From: Comamonas avium
Lineage (GTDB): Bacteria > Pseudomonadota > Gammaproteobacteria > Burkholderiales > Burkholderiaceae_C
NCBI RefSeq assembly: GCF_014836675.1
Contig: NZ_JACSQK010000005.1
Coordinates: forward strand, 172,392 to 236,391
Direction: 5' to 3'
DNA: 64,000 bases
The notes beneath the pieces were generated by a model. That model was not told the origin of the DNA. It ran no database searches and worked only from the letters and a program-made list of their open reading frames with translations. Positions 9,079 through 55,567 of the stretch are shown here, in pieces. The position numbers were made by a program, and so were the translations under genes. Within the stretch, counting starts at the first letter, position 1, and every line of letters starts with the position of its first letter.

Positions 9079-9882
9079 TCAATCCCAGTCGGGCGCCAGA
9101 CCTTCTGGGTTGACCTCGCGGCCATTGCGATCGAGCGTGGCAATCAGCGCCATGTCCTGTGCATCGAGCTTGAGGTCACGGGCCAGCAGGTTGCTGCTCA
9201 GATTTTCACGCTTGGTCGACGATGGAATCACCGCATAGCCCAGTTGAAGTGCCCATGCCAGTGCCACCTGTGCCACGGTAGCGTGGTGTTTTTCGGCAAT
9301 CGTTGCCAGCACCGGGTCTTTGAGCACCTTGCCATACGCCAGGGTCATGTACGACGTCACAGCAATGCCTTGCTCTTTGAGATAAGCCGTCAGCTTGTGG
9401 CTCTGCAGGTAGGGGCTCAGCTCTATTTGATTGGTGGCAATTTCGTCTTTGCCCACCACGGCGATGGCCTGCTGCGTCAGCGCAATATTGAAGTTGGAAA
9501 TACCGATCTGGCGTGTCAGACCCAGCGCCTTGGCTTCGGCCAGTGCTTCCATGTATTGGGGCAGTGGCACGCCATTGCCGGGCGCGGGCCAGTGAATCAG
9601 CGTCAGATCGACAGAGTCAGTACGCAGTTTCTCCAGGCTTTCACGCAGGCTGGATACCAGCTTGGTTTTGGCGTAGTTGGCTGTCCAGATTTTGGTGGTG
9701 ATGAACAGTTCGCTACGGGGAACGCCGCTTTCGGCAATGGCTTGCCCAACTTCGGCTTCGTTGCCATAGATTTGTGCGGTGTCGACCGCGCGGTAGCCTA
9801 CGTCCAGTGCATTGCGCACCGAGTCAATTGCGCTCTGGCCGGTCAGACGGAAAGTACCAACACCAAAGGAAGGGATGCCCAT
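9079..9882 (-). CDS. dkgB: Aldo/keto reductase, DkgB-like (2,5-diketo-gluconate reductase)
   Basis: The 267 residues equal the length of E. coli DkgB, and the two proteins agree along most of their length, for example [54 protein letters not shown] and the C-terminal EGLAPDWD. The aldo/keto reductase tetrad is visible: Asp and Tyr in DTAQIYGN, Lys in TTKIW and His in LIHWP. The enzyme uses NADPH to reduce 2,5-diketo-D-gluconate and small reactive aldehydes such as methylglyoxal. It precedes no other minus-strand gene closely. The MFS gene lies 223 bp upstream, a gap with nothing I recognise. Confidence 0.88.
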
Positions 9883-10105
9883 GGAAAACTCCTAAATGAG
9901 AAAAGTCAGTTGAGTGAAAAAAAAATGGCTTGAAACCAGACGCAGTGCGGCTGCGATCAATCCCGTGTTTCGCTATGAATGCCGGTGGGCCGGCTCCATA
10001 GTTGTTGATGAAGTCTGGGACTTCCTCCGTATTTTTGAAACTGCAGCCAATGCCTGCGAAGGTCTGGCACCTGCAAGAAAAGTTGTTGAGGGCATGTCCA
10101 TCGGC

Positions 10106-11269
10106 TTATGCGCATTGCTTTGCTTCGCGGCGATGCATGCTGCCCAGCCATACCAGTGCCAGTCCGCCTGCGGCAAGTGCGGCCCCTACCCAAGGCACGG
10201 CCGCATAACCCAGGCCCTGACCAATCACCATGCCACCCAGTGCCGCACCGACTGCATTGCCCAGATTGAATGCACCGACGTTGACCGAAGAGGCCAGGCC
10301 AGGTGCCTGAGATGCTGCTTGCATCACCCGCATCTGCACGGGTGGGACGATGCCAAAAGCGGCGGCCCCCCAGAAGACCAGTCCGATAGCGGCCCCGGTA
10401 TGGGTGGTCAGCAGCATGGGCAGCAAGAGCATGGTCAGTGCAAGGGAGGCAAGAATCAGCTTGGTGGCACCATCGAGTGACCAGTCAGCCAGACGGCCAC
10501 CCAGGCTGTTGCCCAGCGTGAATCCAACGCCAATCAGCACCAGAGCGAAAGCCACAAAATCCGGGCTGGCCTGGGTCAGCTCAGTGAGCATGGGGGCGAT
10601 GTAGGTGTAAAGCGTAAACATGGCGGCAGAACCCAGCACGGTGGTGCCCATGGCCAGCAGCACTTCTGGGCGTACCAGTACTTTGAGTTCACGGCGCACA
10701 TCGGGGCGTGTACCGGGCATGCCCTTGGGCAGGGCTGCCCACAGCGCTGCCATGGTGATCAGGCCCAATATGGCCGTGCCACCAAAAGCCACCCGCCAGC
10801 CCACTTGCTGGCCGATCCAGGTTGCAGCAGGCACGCCGCCAATATTGGCAACCGTCAGGCCCATGAACATGGCGGCAATGGCTCTGGCCTGCTTGTCTTT
10901 GGGCACCACGCTGGCCGCTACCACGGCACCGATACCAAAGAAGGCACCGTGGTTCAGGCTGGTAAACAGACGTGACAACAGCAAGGTGGTATAGCTGGGG
11001 GCAAAGGCAGACAGCAAGTTGCCAATGGTGAAGATGAGCATCAGCGATATCAGCGCGGTGCGTTTTCCGAAGCGGCTGAACAGCAGCGTCATGACTGGCG
11101 CGCCCACCATGACACCGATGGCGTAGGCCGACACCAGCATGCCAGCCGTGGGAATACTGACTTGCACACCATCGGCAATGACGGGCAGCAAGCCCATGGG
11201 CGTGAATTCGGTGGTGCCAATGGCAAATGCGCCAATGGCCAGAGCGAAAAGAGCAACTGAAGATTTCAT
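10106..11269 (-). CDS. MFS drug/metabolite exporter (DHA1, AraJ/PbuE-like)
   Basis: This 387-residue transporter has twelve predicted helices. The N-terminus FAIGTTEFTPMGLLPVIADG and the loop RFGKRTAL after helix 2 are typical of DHA1-family exporters close to AraJ, NepI and PbuE. The C-terminus ends in the cytoplasm with a short basic tail (RREAKQCA). It is divergent from a LysR gene starting at 11345, with a candidate operator between them, so it is probably that regulator's target. The exported substrate cannot be deduced. Confidence 0.88.
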   Translation of the reverse strand: MKSSVALFALAIGAFAIGTTEFTPMGLLPVIADGVQVSIPTAGMLVSAYAIGVMVGAPVMTLLFSRFGKRTALISLMLIFTIGNLLSAFAPSYTTLLLSRLFTSLNHGAFFGIGAVVAASVVPKDKQARAIAAMFMGLTVANIGGVPAATWIGQQVGWRVAFGGTAILGLITMAALWAALPKGMPGTRPDVRRELKVLVRPEVLLAMGTTVLGSAAMFTLYTYIAPMLTELTQASPDFVAFALVLIGVGFTLGNSLGGRLADWSLDGATKLILASLALTMLLLPMLLTTHTGAAIGLVFWGAAAFGIVPPVQMRVMQAASQAPGLASSVNVGAFNLGNAVGAALGGMVIGQGLGYAAVPWVGAALAAGGLALVWLGSMHRREAKQCA

Positions 11270-48917: not shown

Positions 48918-49062
48918 TGTCAGCGCCCTATCTGGGCGCTGCGTTGTGTGAAGTGCGCAATGAGACTCACCATCTGATGGCGCATTTCTTGCTTTGAGCA
49001 TTGCAGCATTAATGTTTGCGTTGCTGGCCACAAGCCAGCCTTGCAAAAAACCGGTATCCGCC

Positions 49063-49713
49063 ATGAGCACCACCACTGAGCCCGAGCTAAGCCCCCCCCT
49101 TTCTGTTGTCACCCCCCAGGTGGTCAGACACGGCACCTATGAAGATGCGCAGGCCCTGTTTTCGGGTTCGCTCTTTGTCGGCATCACCATGATGATGTAT
49201 GCCCAGGCCGGGCTGCTGACCGGCAGCACCGCCGGGCTGGCTTTCGTGCTGCACTACGCCACAGGGCTGTCATTTGGCGGCATCTACTTTCTGATCAATA
49301 TCCCGTTTTACTGGTTTGCGTGGAAATATGTGGGCAAGGAGTTCACGGCCAAAACGTTTCTCTCGGTGGCGCTGCTGTCGCTGATCACGGAGCTGGGCCC
49401 ACGGCTGATCCATATTGACTATCTGCACCCCGCTTTTGCTGCCATTGCCGGGGGCCTGCTGATGGGCACCGGGGTATTGTTTCTGGCGCGCCACAAATCA
49501 AGTCTGGGCGGGGCCACCATTGTCTCGCTGTATGCGCAGGACCGATGGGGCATTCCTGCGGGCAAGGTGCAGATGGCCATCGATTGCGTCGTGGTGGCGC
49601 TGGCGTTGTGGGTGGTGCCGTTTGAGCGGGTAGCGTGGTCAGTGCTGGCAGCTGTTGTGATGGGCATTTTCCTGTCGGTAAGCCACCGCCCCGGGCGCTA
49701 CCAAGGCAAGTAG
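49063..49713 (+). CDS. YitT-family membrane protein
   Basis: 216 residues from MSTTTEPELSPPLSV; an in-frame ATG 69 bp upstream is less likely, and no strong Shine-Dalgarno is seen. Five to six membrane helices follow: AQALFSGSLFVGITMMMYAQ region with AGLLTGSTAGLAFVL, LSFGGIYFLINIPFYWFAW, TAKTFLSVALLSLI, FAAIAGGLLMGTGVLFL and the tail helix. This is the YitT/DUF161 family, in which G-x-x-x-G-x-x-x-G membrane motifs are typical; some members are tied to cysteine or ion transport. Function is unknown here. It converges with the soxZ gene across a shared terminator. Confidence 0.85.
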   Translation: MSTTTEPELSPPLSVVTPQVVRHGTYEDAQALFSGSLFVGITMMMYAQAGLLTGSTAGLAFVLHYATGLSFGGIYFLINIPFYWFAWKYVGKEFTAKTFLSVALLSLITELGPRLIHIDYLHPAFAAIAGGLLMGTGVLFLARHKSSLGGATIVSLYAQDRWGIPAGKVQMAIDCVVVALALWVVPFERVAWSVLAAVVMGIFLSVSHRPGRYQGK

Positions 49714-49774
49714 TCTGGACAGCTTTTGGTGCTTTGTGCATCCGTCTTCAAAACCAGTGGGGCGCATCTTCGTA

Positions 49775-49809
49775 AAAAAGCCCCGCAGGCATGGCCAGCG
49801 GGGATTTTT
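49775..49809. terminator. Bidirectional terminator between yitT-type gene and soxZ
   Basis: AAAAAAG precedes CCCCGC (49781-49786); GCGGGG (49798-49803) is followed by ATTTTT. Runs of T on both strands allow it to end both convergent genes. Confidence 0.85.
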
Positions 49810-49826
49810 GCTGCACGCGTGAGGCG

Positions 49827-50162
49827 TCAGCCTACTGCAATGGTTTTCTTGGCGGTCAGCGTCTGGCCCGCGTCGTCTTTCCACAGGAATGTCAGATCGC
49901 CACTTTGCTGGGCTTTGAACGTGAACTCGATGTACGGGTTCTGGGAGATGGAGATACCCGGATCCCAGGTAAAAATCAATTTACCTGCCATCTTGGCTTC
50001 AAAGTGGCTCATCAGGTTGCGGGGGCGCACCTGGCCGGTGGCCGGGTCGGTACGCAAGCCGCTTTCCATAACGTGTTCCATCTGCGCGCGTACACGCAAG
50101 ATGTCACCCTTGGCGGGTTTTTCATTGCTCACCCAGATGCGGGGAGGTTTGTTCATGCTCAT
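49827..50162 (-). CDS. soxZ: Thiosulfate-oxidation carrier subunit SoxZ
   Basis: 111 residues from ATG 50162, with AGGAGG six bases before it (MSMNKPPRIWVSNEKPAKGD). The family follows with RVRAQMEHVMESGLR, MSHFEAKMAGKLIFTWD, and a C-terminal half typical of SoxZ: FTFKAQQSGDLTFLWKDD. SoxZ forms the SoxYZ heterodimer that carries sulfur intermediates in the periplasm; SoxZ has no signal peptide and travels with SoxY through Tat. It is 11 bp after soxY and the last gene of the operon. Confidence 0.92.
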   Translation of the reverse strand: MSMNKPPRIWVSNEKPAKGDILRVRAQMEHVMESGLRTDPATGQVRPRNLMSHFEAKMAGKLIFTWDPGISISQNPYIEFTFKAQQSGDLTFLWKDDAGQTLTAKKTIAVG

Positions 50163-50173
50163 GGAATACCTCC

Positions 50174-50674
50174 TTACATGCCGCAGCCGCTGGCGGCCAC
50201 GGTCACCGCTTGCTTGGCCACCAGTACTTTGCCGCTTTTCATGCGGGCCAGCGCGTGGATGGTCTGCGACTGCGTCAAGCGCACGCGCACCGCAGCTTCT
50301 GCCGCACCGGTATCCACCGTCAGCAGCACCCGGCATGCCAGTGGCGAGGGGTTGAGGTCGGCCAGCACAATGATTTCTTCGCACCACTCTTGTTCAGTGA
50401 TGGGCAAGGTGACCTTGACTTTGACAGGCACTGCGCTGGGGTTGTCAGCCAGTACAGGCAAATCCAGGTGCAGGCCTTCGGTCAGCGGTGTAGCGCTGCC
50501 GATGAACCGTTCCATGGTTTTCTTGAACTCCGCAGGGTTGGGTGCCAAAGGGCCCACGATGGGTGTCTTGGCCTGGGCCATTGCGCTGCTGGGCAGTGCC
50601 AAAACCGCTCCGGCGGCGGCCGCGCCAGCCACCATGTGGCGGCGCGTCAGGGTCGGGGTATATGCAGGTGTCAT
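50174..50674 (-). CDS. soxY: Thiosulfate-oxidation carrier subunit SoxY
   Basis: 166 residues. A Tat signal is present (TLTRRHMVAGAAAAGAV, cut near AMAQA). The SoxY domain has EFKKTMERFIG, PVKVKVTLPITEQ and the swinging arm at the C-terminus with Cys164 (VAASGCGM). Canonical SoxY ends in GGCGG, so the arm is altered on both sides of the sulfur-carrying Cys. Two further cysteines (98 and 114) occur in the body. Three bases separate its start from the stop of the FCSD-like gene, so the two are probably co-translated. Confidence 0.92.
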   Translation of the reverse strand: MTPAYTPTLTRRHMVAGAAAAGAVLALPSSAMAQAKTPIVGPLAPNPAEFKKTMERFIGSATPLTEGLHLDLPVLADNPSAVPVKVKVTLPITEQEWCEEIIVLADLNPSPLACRVLLTVDTGAAEAAVRVRLTQSQTIHALARMKSGKVLVAKQAVTVAASGCGM

Positions 50675-50677
50675 GTC

Positions 50678-52018
50678 TTAGATACCGAGGAAATCGCTGA
50701 ATTTTCCATTGATCCAGGCAAAGTCTTCCTTGACCAGGTCAGGGGTGCGTACATCCATGTCGATCTGGGTCTGGTTGACTTGGCCGTTGGCATCGACCTC
50801 GTACTCGAACTTCACAGAGATTTCTTCCTGTGGGTCGCCATTGACCATCATGTAGCACAGGTTGTCTGGCAGCAAAGGCGTCACTTCCTGGCCCGCAACG
50901 CGTTGCGAGATGTTCTTGGCGACGATCTTGCCAATGAAGTTGGCCACGTGGGCGCTCTTGGGGTAGTGACCAAACTGGGGCGAAATGGCACCCATCAAGT
51001 CACCCACAAAGTACACGCTGTTGTCGGTTTTGGCCGTGAAGTAGCGCACATCCATGTCGGCCCAGCCAGTGGGCTTGCCATCAGGTGTTTTGCCGATCAA
51101 GTCAGCTGCCCAGACCATGTCTGCGGCCTGGTGCGGAGGCATCAGGATGGCATCGTCAAATTTGAACTCGCCCGCAGCAGTTTTGATGCGCTTGTTGAAA
51201 GGGTCGACCTCTTGCACACGGGCATTGGGCACGTGCGTGATGATGTCCGGGTACAGCTCGTCAAACGCCTGCTTGTAGCCTACGCCGATGGGGGCAATCT
51301 TGGGCTTGGGGTCCAGAATCAAGATCTTTCCGGGGATTTTGTTTTTCTTGATGTGCCAGGCAATCAAGCATGCACGCTCGTAAGGCGAGGGCGGGCAGCG
51401 ATGCGGTGGTGGTGGCAGGGTCATGACCAGCGTGCCGCCCTTGAAGTTCTTGACTTTGCTCTTGAGCGCCAGCATCTCCTGGTTGGGGATGTAGGCGTTG
51501 GGGAAGTGCTGGCGGGTGTATTCAATGGCGCGCTGGTCGTTGCCAAACCAGGCTTCATAGTCGTTGCGGATACCTCCGGACAAGATCAGGTAGTCATACT
51601 CGATCAGGCCATGGGCGGTGCGCACCAGCTTCTTGTCGCGTTCAAAGCCTGTGACTTCGGTCTGCACCAGTTTGTAGCCGTATTTGATGGCCGGGTGCAG
51701 CATGTCGCGGTTGATGAAATCGGTGTTCACGATATCGATCAGCCATTTGTTGCTCATGGGGCCTGACCAGAATGTGGGGTTGCGCTCCAGCAAGATCACA
51801 TCCGAGTTGGGGATCAGCTCGCGCAGATACCGTGCCGCAGTCATGCCGCCCCAGCCACCACCACAAATCACAATGCGGGGGCCTTTGCCTTCACGCGGCA
51901 GGATGCGTGACTGCGGGGTCATGATCATGGGGGCTGCAAGTGCAGACGAAGATACGGCGGTAGCCGCTGCACCCAAGGCCATGGCGGGCGGGGTCATCAA
52001 AAAGTGGCGACGTTGCAT
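50678..52018 (-). CDS. FCSD-like FAD oxidoreductase without covalent-FAD cysteine
   Basis: 446 residues from MQRRHFLMTPPA, a Tat signal, with AAGGAA before the ATG. The FAD loop is GGGWGGMTAARYL. It belongs with the flavocytochrome c sulfide dehydrogenase flavoproteins (FccB/SoxF) by its segment HRCPPSPYERAC and a C-terminal FCSD domain. The two redox cysteines are kept (Cys208 in CPPSPYER, Cys388 in NLCYMM). The Cys that binds FAD covalently in FCSD is Gly86 here (FWSGPMSN against FYTCPFSN in the neighbouring FccB). It precedes soxY by 3 bp, so I infer that it exchanges sulfur or electrons with SoxYZ. Sulfide:quinone-like activity is an alternative. Confidence 0.85.
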   Translation of the reverse strand: MQRRHFLMTPPAMALGAAATAVSSSALAAPMIMTPQSRILPREGKGPRIVICGGGWGGMTAARYLRELIPNSDVILLERNPTFWSGPMSNKWLIDIVNTDFINRDMLHPAIKYGYKLVQTEVTGFERDKKLVRTAHGLIEYDYLILSGGIRNDYEAWFGNDQRAIEYTRQHFPNAYIPNQEMLALKSKVKNFKGGTLVMTLPPPPHRCPPSPYERACLIAWHIKKNKIPGKILILDPKPKIAPIGVGYKQAFDELYPDIITHVPNARVQEVDPFNKRIKTAAGEFKFDDAILMPPHQAADMVWAADLIGKTPDGKPTGWADMDVRYFTAKTDNSVYFVGDLMGAISPQFGHYPKSAHVANFIGKIVAKNISQRVAGQEVTPLLPDNLCYMMVNGDPQEEISVKFEYEVDANGQVNQTQIDMDVRTPDLVKEDFAWINGKFSDFLGI

Positions 52019-52408
52019 GGTCAAAGTTCCTTCTTGTGGTTGGACATCGGGCAATCAAATGGACAAGCGTATGCGTGCAAGTGCTGCCGCAGGTCTTGCG
52101 GTAGCCAAGAATGCAAAGGGAACAGAAGTGACCATGCCAGCTACTGGTGAACGCATGCCTTGGCCAAGGTCGGCACAAAGCGGTGCAAGCAGCAAGAAAG
52201 TTGGCATTCAGGGCTCCTGATGTGGCAGGAGCCGCATCCATTGCATCAACGAAACTCAATAGTGCAGGCTTGAGCGTTGATCGTGTGGGCTGGCGTTGGG
52301 CCAAGCACAAACGGGCAAAGGATGAGGGAATCCCTCTTAGCCGTCACGCGGCACAAGCAGAGCTGTCTGGCGGCGATTCTAGACCACCGTGTTGCTTCTA
52401 GAAATAGT
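52019..52408. other. Intergenic region upstream of the FCSD-like/soxYZ unit
   Basis: This 390-bp gap between two minus-strand genes must hold the promoter of the FCSD-like gene unless it is read through from yeeE. TTCTAGA occurs twice (52377-52383 and 52396-52402) in direct orientation 19 bp apart, close to the yeeE stop. I see no convincing gene; short open frames here lack start signals and family features. Confidence 0.6.
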
Positions 52409-53467
52409 CTAAGCAGCGGCTTGGCTGGAAGATGGAAAGAACTTGACCGCTATCAAGGTGCCGCCAACGATGCCTGCCACCGCGGGCAAGGAGGCAATGG
52501 CCAGTGTGCTCAGGCCTGTCAGTCCTTGGCCAATCGAGCAACCGACGGCCAGCACACCACCAAACCCCATGAGAGCGCCACCCACAGCTGTTTTGGCCAG
52601 ATGCGCCGGGCTGTGAAAGCCTTCCCATTGGGCGGTTCGGGTGAGCAAGGCCATGACCAAGCCTCCGGCCAGTACGCCCAGCACCATGGCAGGGCCCAGG
52701 CTGAAAGCGCGGCCCACTGCAACTTGCAGGTAAAGCAGGTTTTCGGCAATGGGGGCGATAAAGCTCAGTGATGTGAGTTTCTCGGGGTCAAAAGGGTCCA
52801 CATCGACTGTGGCAGTCAGCCACCAGCCGAATGCAACCAGGGCTCCGATAGCGATAGCACTGATCCACTGTGCTCGGCTGCGGCGCAGGGCTGGTTGCCA
52901 CAGCGCATAGGCGGTCAATAACAGCGCGGGCAAGAGAGCCAGCAGTGCAAAGCTTGCAAGAGGCGTCCATTGCGCCGCCTGCACAACTTGGGGCAAGGTT
53001 GCGTTTTCAACGGTTGTGGGAGCCAGTGCCTGAAACCATTGGCGCACGGGCACCAGTACACCAGTCAGGCTGGCCTGTGCGCCCAGGCCAAGAAACACCA
53101 CCGTGACCAGTGCACGCAGGTTGCCGCCTGCCAGTAAAACCAGAGCGCGTGCACCACAACTGTTGGCCAGCACCATCCCAATGCCAAACAGCGCACCACC
53201 AATCAGTACGCCGGGAATGGAGAAACTGGTGCGTACGATCTGTGCATTGCCCAGATCGACCAGCCCAGCCCAGTGCAAGCCTTGTGAAGCCAGTACTGCA
53301 ACGGCCAGTGCCAAGGCAAAGGCCTGCAGTGCAGGAGCGCTGCCGCGAGGTGCTGAATTGTCTTGGCCCAGCGACTGGCGCAAACCACGCAGCAGGCAAA
53401 ACCGACCCAGCCGCGCTGCAGCGCCAAACGCGCAGCCCCAAAAAAAACCGGCCCACAAAAGCGTCAT
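52409..53467 (-). CDS. YeeE/YedE-family sulfur transporter
   Basis: 352 residues with about nine membrane helices. Hallmarks of the YeeE/YedE (TsuA) family are cysteine-containing loops: GMVLANSCGARALVLLAGGN and AVGCSIGQGLTGLSTLAI. In the characterised TsuA such cysteines pass thiosulfate through the membrane. The gene starts 4 bp after the fccB stop, so it is in one operon with the flavocytochrome genes; uptake or release of thiosulfate or another reduced sulfur compound is likely. Confidence 0.88.
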   Translation of the reverse strand: MTLLWAGFFWGCAFGAAARLGRFCLLRGLRQSLGQDNSAPRGSAPALQAFALALAVAVLASQGLHWAGLVDLGNAQIVRTSFSIPGVLIGGALFGIGMVLANSCGARALVLLAGGNLRALVTVVFLGLGAQASLTGVLVPVRQWFQALAPTTVENATLPQVVQAAQWTPLASFALLALLPALLLTAYALWQPALRRSRAQWISAIAIGALVAFGWWLTATVDVDPFDPEKLTSLSFIAPIAENLLYLQVAVGRAFSLGPAMVLGVLAGGLVMALLTRTAQWEGFHSPAHLAKTAVGGALMGFGGVLAVGCSIGQGLTGLSTLAIASLPAVAGIVGGTLIAVKFFPSSSQAAA

Positions 53468-53470
53468 GGC

Positions 53471-54748
53471 TTAACGATCCCAGATATCCGTACTGATGGA
53501 TTTGTACCATGCCGCACCGTATTCGGCCTCTGCTTTGCGAAAGCCTGCATCGGCATCTGCTGGGCTGACGCCGCCAGAGCCAGCCACTTCGATCAGCTTG
53601 CCCGCGTCGGTGCGGTAAACGCCAGCCACAGAGATGCCGTAGTTCGTGCCGATCAGGCTGTAGCAGGTGTTGGCGAAGGCGGCTGCAGGAGCAGCTTGGC
53701 CGGCCAGTTGCGCAGCAATGACAGCTGCAGCCACCTTGCCCTGGGTGTTGGCCGAGAAGCCAGATTTTGGCATGGGGGCCGCCTGCGTGGCATCGCCCAG
53801 TACATAGACATTGCTGACCAGGGTCGACTCAAAACTGTCGGGCTTGACAGGCACCCAGCCGCTGGCATCGGTGACCCCTGCACGGTCCGCGATAAAGCCA
53901 GCCTTCTGGGGAGGAATCACGTTCAACACATCGGCCTGGTGCTTGGTGCCAAACGAGGTTTCCACCTCCAGACGCTTGGCATCCACACGCGCCACTTGGC
54001 CATCATCCGATTGCTTGACCCATTCGATCATGTCGCCATACAGCGCCTTGAAGCCCTGCAAGAACAGGCCTTGCTTGGAGAAAGCGTCCTTGTTGTCCAG
54101 CAGCAGGATTTTGGATTTGGGTTTGTGCTGCTTGAAGTAGTGGGCCACCATGGCCGCGCGTTCGTAGGGGCCAGGTGGGCAGCGAAAGGGGTTGGCAGGA
54201 ATCACCATCACAAACTTGCCACCGTCAGGCATGGCGTCGATTTGTTTTTTCAGCAGCAGGGTTTGCGGGCCAGCCTTCCAGGCGTGCGGCGCCAGCTGTG
54301 AGGTGGCTTCGTCGTAACCTTCCAGCGCGCCCCAGCGCATATCAATACCGGGGGAGAGCACCAGTTTGTCGTAGCTCAGCGCCTGGCCGCTGGAGAGCAA
54401 AACGCGGCGGGCGCTGGTGTCTACGTTGTCGGCACGGGCGTGTATGACTTCAATGCCTGCCTTGCGCAAGCCATCGTAGCTGTGACCAATGCTCTCAAAC
54501 GAGCGCAAGCCTGCCAGCACCAGATTGGAGAACGGGCAGGTGTAAAAACGCTGCGCTGGCTCGATCAGCGTCACACGCACCTGGGGCGCGCGGGCCTTCA
54601 GGTAACGGGCTGCGGTAGCACCACCGAAGCCGCCCCCCACAACGACCACATGGGCTGAGCCCCCCTGGGCGCGGACGATTGCGGGCATGGCCAATGAGGC
54701 AGCACCTGCAACGGCACTGCCTAAAACTGTACGGCGATTGAATGTCAT
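53471..54748 (-). CDS. fccB: Flavocytochrome c sulfide dehydrogenase, flavoprotein subunit
   Basis: 425 residues. A Tat signal is seen (MTFNRRTVLGSAVAGAAS, cut after VRAQ). The FAD loop is VVVGGGFGGATAARYL; Cys71 in FYTCPFSN is the covalent FAD attachment site, and Cys190 (CPPGPYER) and Cys362 (NTCYSLI) form the redox disulfide. The C-terminal FCSD domain ends in AEYGAAWYKSISTDIW. It oxidises sulfide in the periplasm and passes electrons to the cytochrome subunit, encoded immediately upstream (the fccA stop and fccB start adjoin). Confidence 0.92.
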   Translation of the reverse strand: MTFNRRTVLGSAVAGAASLAMPAIVRAQGGSAHVVVVGGGFGGATAARYLKARAPQVRVTLIEPAQRFYTCPFSNLVLAGLRSFESIGHSYDGLRKAGIEVIHARADNVDTSARRVLLSSGQALSYDKLVLSPGIDMRWGALEGYDEATSQLAPHAWKAGPQTLLLKKQIDAMPDGGKFVMVIPANPFRCPPGPYERAAMVAHYFKQHKPKSKILLLDNKDAFSKQGLFLQGFKALYGDMIEWVKQSDDGQVARVDAKRLEVETSFGTKHQADVLNVIPPQKAGFIADRAGVTDASGWVPVKPDSFESTLVSNVYVLGDATQAAPMPKSGFSANTQGKVAAAVIAAQLAGQAAPAAAFANTCYSLIGTNYGISVAGVYRTDAGKLIEVAGSGGVSPADADAGFRKAEAEYGAAWYKSISTDIWDR

Positions 54749-55099
54749 TTACTTGGCCTCCTTGCTGAACCACTGGGCGAGAGCTTGGATCTGGGCATCG
54801 TCATAGCCCTTCATCAGACGGGTCATCACCGTGGCATCGCTGGCGGTGCCCGTTTTGAACGCTTGCATGCGTTGCAGCAGGTGGCGCTCACCCACACCGC
54901 GCAGTGAAGGGATACCGCCCGTGGATTGGCCATTCGGTCCGTGGCAGTTGGCGCAGGTGCCAGCCAGCACAGAAATGTCCTGCACGCTGAGGCCAGCGGT
55001 AGCCGGTGCGGACGCGGTTTGCGCCATGGCCGCAGGGGCCAGCAAAGCTGCTGCCAGCCACAAGGCTGAACGCAGTGAGGAAGCGGGGGACACAGGCAT
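54749..55099 (-). CDS. fccA: Flavocytochrome c sulfide dehydrogenase, cytochrome c subunit
   Basis: 116 residues from MPVSPASSLRS, with GGAG before the ATG. The signal peptide ends near AAMAQ. One class I heme c site is present, Cys49-x-x-Cys52-His53 (CANCH), with the axial Met at about residue 96 (TRLMKGYDD). It is a single-heme form; the Allochromatium subunit has two. It is the first gene of the minus-strand operon fccA-fccB-yeeE and accepts electrons from the FAD subunit. A SoxE-like cytochrome is an equal name. Confidence 0.88.
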   Translation of the reverse strand: MPVSPASSLRSALWLAAALLAPAAMAQTASAPATAGLSVQDISVLAGTCANCHGPNGQSTGGIPSLRGVGERHLLQRMQAFKTGTASDATVMTRLMKGYDDAQIQALAQWFSKEAK

Positions 55100-55567
55100 G
55101 CAGTCTCCTATCGCGTGCCGGAATGCAGGGGTGCATCCGTGGGTGTTTATCGTGGATAAGTGCAAGGCCCATGACCGTGCACCCTTTGGAGCGTCGCATT
55201 CTAGGTAGCACATTGAAACAACTGGTTAGAAGTTTCTGCACCCTGCATATAAGGACCGCTGGTCGGATCTCTTGCGTAGATGCGCTTTCGAATGCGGCAG
55301 GCCCAGATGATGCATGGCTACGTAAATATAGGAGCATACAGCGCTTGTTACAAAAGCGTTTCAGTGTGAAATTGCTTGAATTTCATGGAGCCCAACTTCT
55401 TTGCAAGTGCATCTTGAGTACAGATGCTTGGCATCTTTTATGAAGATGCTTTATGGATGAGTGGTGCTGCCAAAGTGCTGCGCAGGTCTTGGCGATGGAA
55501 GCGGCAAGCCATAAAAAAAGCCCCTGCAGAGATAAACCGCAGAGGCTTGGCTGGAAGTGTCAGGGCA
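55100..55567. other. Intergenic region upstream of fccA
   Basis: This 468-bp gap holds the metG terminator at 55511-55548 and must carry the fccAB promoter. The region 55200-55440 is relatively AT-rich. I recognise no gene or known operator. Confidence 0.6.
55511..55548 (-). terminator. Intrinsic terminator after metG
   Basis: On the minus strand AAGCCTCTGC (55548-55539) pairs with GCAGGGGCTT (55527-55518) including one wobble pair, then a T run to 55513. Confidence 0.8.

Follow-up and report, generated by a model that had tools for sequence, protein, structure and literature searches.

A conserved flavoprotein-SoxYZ operon of Comamonas avium, separate from the Sox thiosulfate-oxidising system and possibly tied to selenium use

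What do the carrier proteins SoxY and SoxZ serve in a genome without SoxA, SoxB and SoxC? The question is raised by a stretch of 64,000 nucleotides from Comamonas avium (contig NZ_JACSQK010000005.1, positions 172,392 to 236,391 of the forward strand; hereafter the window), which carries an operon of six minus-strand genes for a cytochrome c, an FCSD flavoprotein (FCSD1), a YeeE-type transporter, a diverged FCSD-type flavoprotein (FCSD2), SoxY and SoxZ. An original prediction, made from the sequence alone, had taken the locus for a truncated Sox locus whose SoxYZ might be loaded with persulfide by an FCSD-type flavoprotein. Here, we show that the operon is a separate conserved unit and not a Sox remnant. 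Across genomes FCSD2 follows selA, a marker of the selenocysteine trait, and not SoxB, and we tentatively read the operon as a dedicated periplasmic chalcogen relay whose cargo may be selenium, supplied for selenocysteine.

Coordinates and family matches confirm the six genes in the predicted order, given here in the direction of transcription:

54749..55099, minus strand: monoheme cytochrome c, 116 amino acids (PF00034, 35.9 bits; export signal recognised by eye)
53471..54748, minus strand: FCSD1, a true FCSD flavoprotein, 425 amino acids (PF21706, 175.7 bits; PF09242, 96.4 bits)
52409..53467, minus strand: YeeE/TsuA-type membrane transporter, 352 amino acids (PF04143, 182.5 bits)
52019..52408: gap of 390 bp between the cytochrome c-FCSD1-YeeE and FCSD2-SoxYZ modules
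50678..52018, minus strand: FCSD2, a diverged FCSD-type flavoprotein, 446 amino acids (PF21706, 85.8 bits; PF09242 unmatched)
50174..50674, minus strand: SoxY variant, 166 amino acids (PF13501, 92.3 bits), with the tail ASGCGM and carrier Cys164
49827..50162, minus strand: SoxZ, 111 amino acids (TIGR04490, 89.8 bits, above the cut-off of 76)

The 390-bp gap, absent from the original prediction, splits the operon into two modules, cytochrome c-FCSD1-YeeE and FCSD2-SoxY-SoxZ. No conserved gene was recognised in it; one frame matched weakly, in a few close relatives only.

Concerning the Sox enzymes, the source genome (3.93 Mb, 19 contigs, 100% complete) was searched for SoxA, SoxB, SoxC and SoxX, as the original prediction had proposed; SoxD was not searched for. 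SoxA and SoxB gave no match. The best SoxX match reached 24.4 bits in a frame of 535 amino acids against a cut-off of 61 and is no true SoxX, and the best SoxC matches (31.9 and 22 bits, cut-off 420) are distant relatives only. SoxA, SoxX and SoxC each scored over cut-off in 6/6 SoxB-bearing control genomes. Of the components expected of a Sox thiosulfate-oxidising system the genome therefore lacks SoxB, the pair SoxA and SoxX, and SoxC alike, and the soxAXB set elsewhere in the genome that had been named as contrary evidence was not found. The genome holds one SoxY only, that of the operon. These data support the conclusion that no SoxA, SoxB or SoxC encoded in the same genome can serve the operon's SoxYZ.

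The same independence is seen among 100 related genomes, for which the two-by-two tables were compiled by hand, here and below. SoxB exceeds its cut-off in 43 of them and FCSD2 (at least 79% identity) is present in 32, the source genome included; 13 of these have SoxB and 19 do not, and the two genes are distributed independently (13/19/30/38, Fisher p=0.83). SoxA and SoxC were over cut-off in 0 of the 18 genomes tested among the 19 without SoxB. Since three SoxB-less genomes with FCSD2 are single-contig assemblies (G001, G004 and G032), the absence of Sox enzymes does not stem from assembly gaps. A second SoxY is present in 12 of the 13 relatives having both FCSD2 and SoxB; among the 19 relatives that lack SoxB, G052 and G056 have two SoxYs and all others a single one.

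The pairing of an FCSD-type flavoprotein with SoxYZ, proposed to be a unit, proved conserved. FCSD2, SoxY and SoxZ are contiguous in 30/30 loci of the genus, including that of the window, and YeeE lies upstream of FCSD2 in all 30, within 1.5 kb in 29 and at 1.7 kb in one. A scan of named genomes gave 225 stretches containing relatives; 80 of these were retained as named loci, and 19 of the 80 belong to genomes already in the set of relatives, leaving 61 further loci. Of the 80 named loci, 72 have SoxY plus SoxZ within 5.5 kb of FCSD2; 65 have FCSD1, 64 the cytochrome and 55 YeeE within that distance. Counting the 61 non-repeat loci only, SoxYZ stands beside FCSD2 in 54, from Beta- and Alphaproteobacteria. 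The named loci span Comamonas, Acidovorax, Zoogloea, Rubrivivax, Alcaligenes, Oligella, Lautropia, Paracoccus, Hyphomicrobium and others, and the entire operon is found on plasmid p402633 of Paracoccus alcaliphilus. In two of the eight named loci lacking SoxYZ, L121 and L128, the sequence stops no more than 130 bp from FCSD2; in L156, L159, L166, L169, L170 and L171 SoxYZ is not nearby. The gene order, for which a search of other genomes had been suggested, occurs in the genus and the named loci in three arrangements: as in the window, with the modules swapped (Alcaligenaceae), or divergent (L158). The 3-bp gap between FCSD2 and soxY noted earlier is correct here, but such tight spacing is not conserved, as it ranges from about 7 to 359 bp over 47 named loci. 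A phylum-wide sample of 398 genomes (E 1e-60) gave four matches, two of them already known (the source genome and G002), and gained little. FCSD2 and SoxY distances correlate with r=0.79; as other operon pairs give 0.72-0.91, this adds nothing.

SoxY itself is of a particular kind. It matches a solved SoxY (2ox5, E 7e-10) and has a twin-arginine-like signal, TRRHMVA, recognised by eye; SoxZ would be exported together with it. With 96 bits, SoxY falls below the cut-off (125 bits) of TIGR04488, the model of the true GGCGG SoxY, and it lacks the GGCGG arm expected of the Sox system. Cys164, correctly picked out by the original prediction, lies within the tail ASGCGM, which recurs in 30/30 genus loci. 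Among 73 SoxY sequences of named loci the tail cysteine is kept in all; 63 end in GCGM or GCGL (ASGCGM 34, AGGCGM 15, AGGCGL 8), and L158 alone ends in GGCGG. In a tree that carries long-branch warnings, the 85 FCSD2-linked SoxYs form one side of a single branch (support 92/86), apart from 24 GGCGG SoxYs; the core of this clade, 80 sequences, has a support of 100/98.

FCSD2 is likewise set apart. Both flavoproteins are indeed of FCSD type, as had been stated, but FCSD2 is 34% identical to FCSD1 and, in a quick tree of 174 sequences thinned to 102, forms a single clade (SH-aLRT 99) on a long branch away from true FCSD. It has a twin-arginine signal, QRRHFLM (by eye). Its AlphaFold model (pLDDT 85) finds 3vrd, 5n1t and 1fcd as the nearest PDB folds (TM 0.74-0.77 by query length, 27-28% identity). 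Cys208, Cys217 and Cys388 are invariant in 96/96 FCSD2 sequences, and Cys208 and Cys388 align with cysteines of 1fcd which we take to be the FCSD redox pair beside the FAD. FCSD2 of the window thus has the two cysteines beside FAD expected of FccB and lacks the FAD-linking one, with Gly86 at a position whose cysteine presumably makes the covalent FAD link in FCSD; over the 96 sequences this position is Gly in 68, Cys in 20, Leu in five and Ala in three. The additional Cys217 (window positions 51368-51370), nine residues past Cys208, occurs in 0/70 FCSD1 and 5/7 other FCSD sequences. We also considered whether FCSD2 is SoxF. An FCSD-like gene in an unannotated record of P. pantotrophus, with a SoxY match about 6 kb away, was taken as soxF; it groups on the FCSD1 side, outside FCSD2, so the tree does not support this identity. 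Separately, a distant lineage (G200) has two adjacent FCSD2-like genes (L177:6727-8043 and 9134-10456; 308 and 278 bits), sister to the FCSD2 clade, with no SoxYZ seen in the listed frames.

Because the operon is conserved with or without SoxB, and because its SoxY and FCSD2 form clades of their own, a decayed Sox cluster is ruled out and the word "truncated" finds no support.

The first module is more conventional. The CxxCH motif of the cytochrome c is kept in 63/63 homologues from named loci, and the protein is likely an FccA-like electron acceptor for FCSD1. FCSD1 has a twin-arginine signal (NRRTVLG, by eye), Cys71 at the FAD-linking position (Cys in 70/70 sequences) and cysteines 190 and 362, and matches the solved FCSDs 5n1t (E 1e-137), 1fcd (E 6e-123) and 3vrd (E 2e-122). 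YeeE belongs to PF04143 and has the three channel cysteines of the TsuA/YeeE transporters, 24, 104 and 310, present in 53/53 copies and aligned with those of TsuA (6leo, E 2e-12), and falls under the cut-off of every NCBIfam model that it matches. Relatives in PF04143 (SoxT/TsuA, YedE/FdhT) are encoded near sox or selenium genes (PMC11582611, PMC5322559).

If the operon does not belong to the Sox system, what does it go with? The selenocysteine trait was tested because two Rhizobiales loci showed selD beside FCSD2. selD itself, over cut-off in 85/100 relatives, was uninformative. selA was searched for in 50 of the 61 non-repeat loci (all but L103, L116, L121, L137, L142, L149, L152, L154, L160, L161 and L167) and found, always over cut-off, in 49; Azohydromonas australica is the exception. 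By record title, 19/20 named genera with FCSD2 have selA. The probability of this is 2e-10 against a background of 27%, 0.008 against 70% and 0.10 against 82%, so that the strength of the link at genus level hinges on the true background. The published rate of the selenium-use trait in bacteria is 24.7% (PMC5322559). Among the relatives, selA is present in 31/32 genomes with FCSD2 versus 31/68 without. Outside the genus, it occurs in 12/45 FCSD2-free genomes, a background set that takes a single genome from each family in the order and adds a few from the same family. Controls outside the genus show no such link for other FCSDs (7/24 vs 5/21) or for SoxB (6/24 vs 8/23). By these counts (49/50 and 31/32 vs 12/45) FCSD2 is nearly confined to selenium-using genomes. 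For YedE, of the same transporter superfamily as YeeE, a role in selenium transport was proposed on similar evidence (PMC5322559).

Physical linkage points the same way, with selenium genes as neighbours in several lineages. In 4/80 loci (L145, L157, L159 and L169), selenium genes or a selenocysteine formate dehydrogenase gene are found no more than 8 kb from FCSD2; 0.54 would be expected assuming 4-Mb genomes and one 27-kb target (P 0.002). In L145 (Paracoccus), about 320 bp separate the six-gene operon from a divergent fdnG that contains an in-frame TGA and precedes fdnH, selA, selB and tRNA-Sec. In the Rhizobiales loci L157 and L159, selD, selB, tRNA-Sec and selA are close to FCSD2, and L157 has SoxYZ between FCSD2 and selD; this selD was named by homology to the selD matches of the relatives and by AIRS domains. 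L169 (4481-17257) has the order putative selenate ABC transporter (TIGR04553, 365 bits, cut-off 250), FCSD2, moeA (by eye), TGA-containing fdnG and selA; its FCSD2 is a deep branch of the clade and SoxYZ is not adjacent. Throughout, fdnI, fdhE (except that of the annotated plasmid described next), moeA and selU were named by eye or position. Among 72,556 plasmids, FCSD2 (at least 60% identity) occurs on one, which also has selA, fdhE and fdnG about 136 kb away; selA occurs on 145. In G056 the operon is about 13 kb from selD and about 21 kb from selA. The source genome has the full selenocysteine trait, with an in-frame-TGA fdnG, selA, selB and tRNA-Sec on contig C11 and selD on C16.

Some further observations concern these loci. 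The intergenic stretch of about 320 bp between operon and fdnG (L145:4990-5320, and L255) is a good candidate site for a shared regulator. In G064, about 10 kb separate selA from a gene with 44% identity to FCSD1 (L238:2872 and 12689), and the FCSD2 homologue is elsewhere. In FCSD2-free relatives, the surroundings of selA were examined for a substitute selenium transporter. The searched stretches, with or without FCSD2, yielded no homologue of the ABC binding protein of L169, and inspection of the frames of seven loci gave no candidate replacement.

From the observed gene content, conservation, co-occurrence and linkage we infer chemical steps, direction of flow and cargo as follows. FCSD2 would bind a reduced chalcogenide, and its site of Cys208, Cys388 and FAD would oxidise this to a zero-valent atom. 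The atom would then be handed to SoxY, at Cys164 of the tail, and SoxYZ could thereby be loaded without SoxAX. Loaded SoxYZ would present the atom to YeeE, whose three cysteines might relay it into the cytoplasm. FCSD1 and the cytochrome may perform the same oxidation in the classical manner, draining electrons. With selenium as cargo, selenide would become carrier-bound Se0, to be delivered to SelD for selenocysteine. The route from FCSD over SoxYZ to YeeE, as originally predicted, is reasonable because YeeE keeps the three TsuA-aligned cysteines; sulfur as what travels along it is doubtful, as FCSD2 follows the selenocysteine trait. SoxYZ is active when loaded with sulfane; the bare protein needs activation and in its reduced state is unable to react with sulfide (PMC5336275). 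An oxidising loader would therefore be plausible. A sulfide:quinone oxidoreductase (SQR) has been crystallised with sodium selenide, according to the title of structure 3sz0.

Selenium is slightly favoured as cargo, since the distribution of FCSD2 follows selA and not SoxB; sulfur is the main rival. Several points weigh against selenium. Within the genus, selA is present in 30/31 genomes with FCSD2 and 18/22 without, which is not significant (p=0.15), and the operon is therefore dispensable for selenocysteine. Two genomes with FCSD2 lack selA, namely Azohydromonas australica and G014, which is 85% complete. The selA background does not extend to FCSD2-free Paracoccaceae and Alcaligenaceae. The linkage test is partly circular, because L157 and L159 had prompted the selenium idea, and taking selD as an additional target (about 45 kb) raises the expected number to 0.9 and P to 0.013-0.03. 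In the source genome the operon (C15), selA (C11) and selD (C16) are on three contigs. YeeE scores higher for the thiosulfate transporter TsuA (85.8 bits) than for YedE/FdhT, the selenium protein (46.7 bits). FCSD1 together with the cytochrome resembles a common sulfide dehydrogenase, and FCSD2 and selenocysteine formate dehydrogenase might both belong to a low-oxygen life-style.

The best of the alternatives, a sulfur relay, is possible. In it FCSD1 and FCSD2 would oxidise sulfide, SoxY would carry the persulfide and YeeE would import it for oxidation or assimilation, which would amount to a SoxAX-independent sulfide oxidation or detoxification in heterotrophs. The proteins are of sulfur families, FCSD1 matches solved sulfide dehydrogenases (5n1t best), and the sulfane-loaded working form of SoxYZ described above speaks for an oxidising loader. 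What a sulfur relay leaves unexplained is the nesting of FCSD2 in selA-bearing genomes, unlike other FCSDs and SoxB, and the selD, selA and selenium-transporter neighbours.

It is unlikely that the association is a coincidence of life-style, with a sulfide-handling operon and a selA that merely marks the same low-oxygen formate users, without a tie to selenium. In its favour, fdnG adjoins selA in most fetched loci, whether FCSD2 is present or not, and the within-genus test is not significant; the lack of any selA link for other FCSDs and SoxB outside the genus and the four linked loci, with 0.54 (P 0.002) or 0.9 (P 0.013) expected, speak against it.

Least probable is FCSD2 as a SoxF-like activator repairing or reactivating the SoxYZ of a Sox pathway: SoxF flavoproteins are FCSD-like, and a soxF flavoprotein reportedly stimulates thiosulfate oxidation according to one study, but 19/32 relatives with FCSD2 have no SoxB over cut-off, SoxA and SoxC are over cut-off in 0/18 tested, and the tree places the presumed P. 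pantotrophus soxF on the side of FCSD1.

Two terminator-like hairpins flank the operon:

55518..55548, minus strand: terminator-like hairpin of metG at the metG/operon boundary, a 12-pair stem followed by a T run
49765..49815, minus strand: terminator-like hairpin 3' of soxZ (-19.1 kcal/mol, z -2.24)

Due to the first hairpin, co-transcription with metG is unlikely. A promoter scan gave one match, not above shuffled sequences. Convergent with soxZ lies a gene for a YitT-family membrane protein (window positions 48994-49713, plus strand), a neighbour that many of the genus loci retain.

Many bacteria thus hold a conserved SoxYZ-flavoprotein unit that goes beyond thiosulfate chemistry. As thiosulfate chemistry does not explain the unit, "soxYZ present" is unfit to be scored as thiosulfate oxidation. 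If true, the selenium reading would answer the open question of high-affinity selenium transport in prokaryotes, of which a specific system has not been identified according to two reviews (PMC9312934, PMC13188914). SoxYs outside thiosulfate oxidation are already known (PMC11237559), and FCSD-SoxXYZA clusters exist on alphaproteobacterial plasmids. In the literature accessible to our search, which lay outside most subscription journals, neither an FCSD2-SoxYZ unit nor a tie of SoxYZ to selenium was found described, nor was biochemistry for selenium or sulfur as its cargo. A comparison of fccAB contexts over few genera reports no conserved neighbours (PMC6382920).

These plasmid clusters are L258 and L259, from Neorhizobium and Roseomonas; they form a further kind of SoxYZ unit, an FCSD-like oxidoreductase gene with SoxX-SoxY-SoxZ-SoxA and no soxB annotated in the stretch. 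The Neorhizobium cluster (FCSD-SoxX-SoxY-SoxZ-SoxA) shares with the operon an FCSD-like gene beside SoxYZ and the lack of an annotated soxB in the stretch; it differs in having SoxX and SoxA, in a flavoprotein 31% identical to FCSD2 and in a SoxY annotated as AACIE-arm. Divergent SoxYs (SoxYZ-S2/S4 and SoxY-S1c/S3) are thought to act outside thiosulfate oxidation, as the operon's SoxY would, with S4 near formate and methanol dehydrogenases; S2 and S4 are SoxYZ fusions, and the accessible text names no FCSD partner (PMC11237559). With SoxT/TsuA (YeeE) and YedE/FdhT the operon's YeeE has PF04143 and the three channel cysteines in common, and it is unlike TsuA and YedE/FdhT proper in scoring below both model cut-offs (400 and 350 bits). 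FCSD2 resembles FCSD (FccAB) and SoxF in its fold and its two redox cysteines, whereas its separate clade, its low identity to the solved FCSDs, the extra Cys217 and a FAD-linking cysteine in only 20/96 sequences distinguish it. With the Sox system (SoxXAYZBCD), finally, the operon shares the SoxY and SoxZ families and a carrier cysteine on the C-terminal tail, whereas its genome is without SoxA, SoxB, SoxC or a true SoxX, its tail reads ASGCGM instead of GGCGG, and its SoxY belongs to a separate clade.

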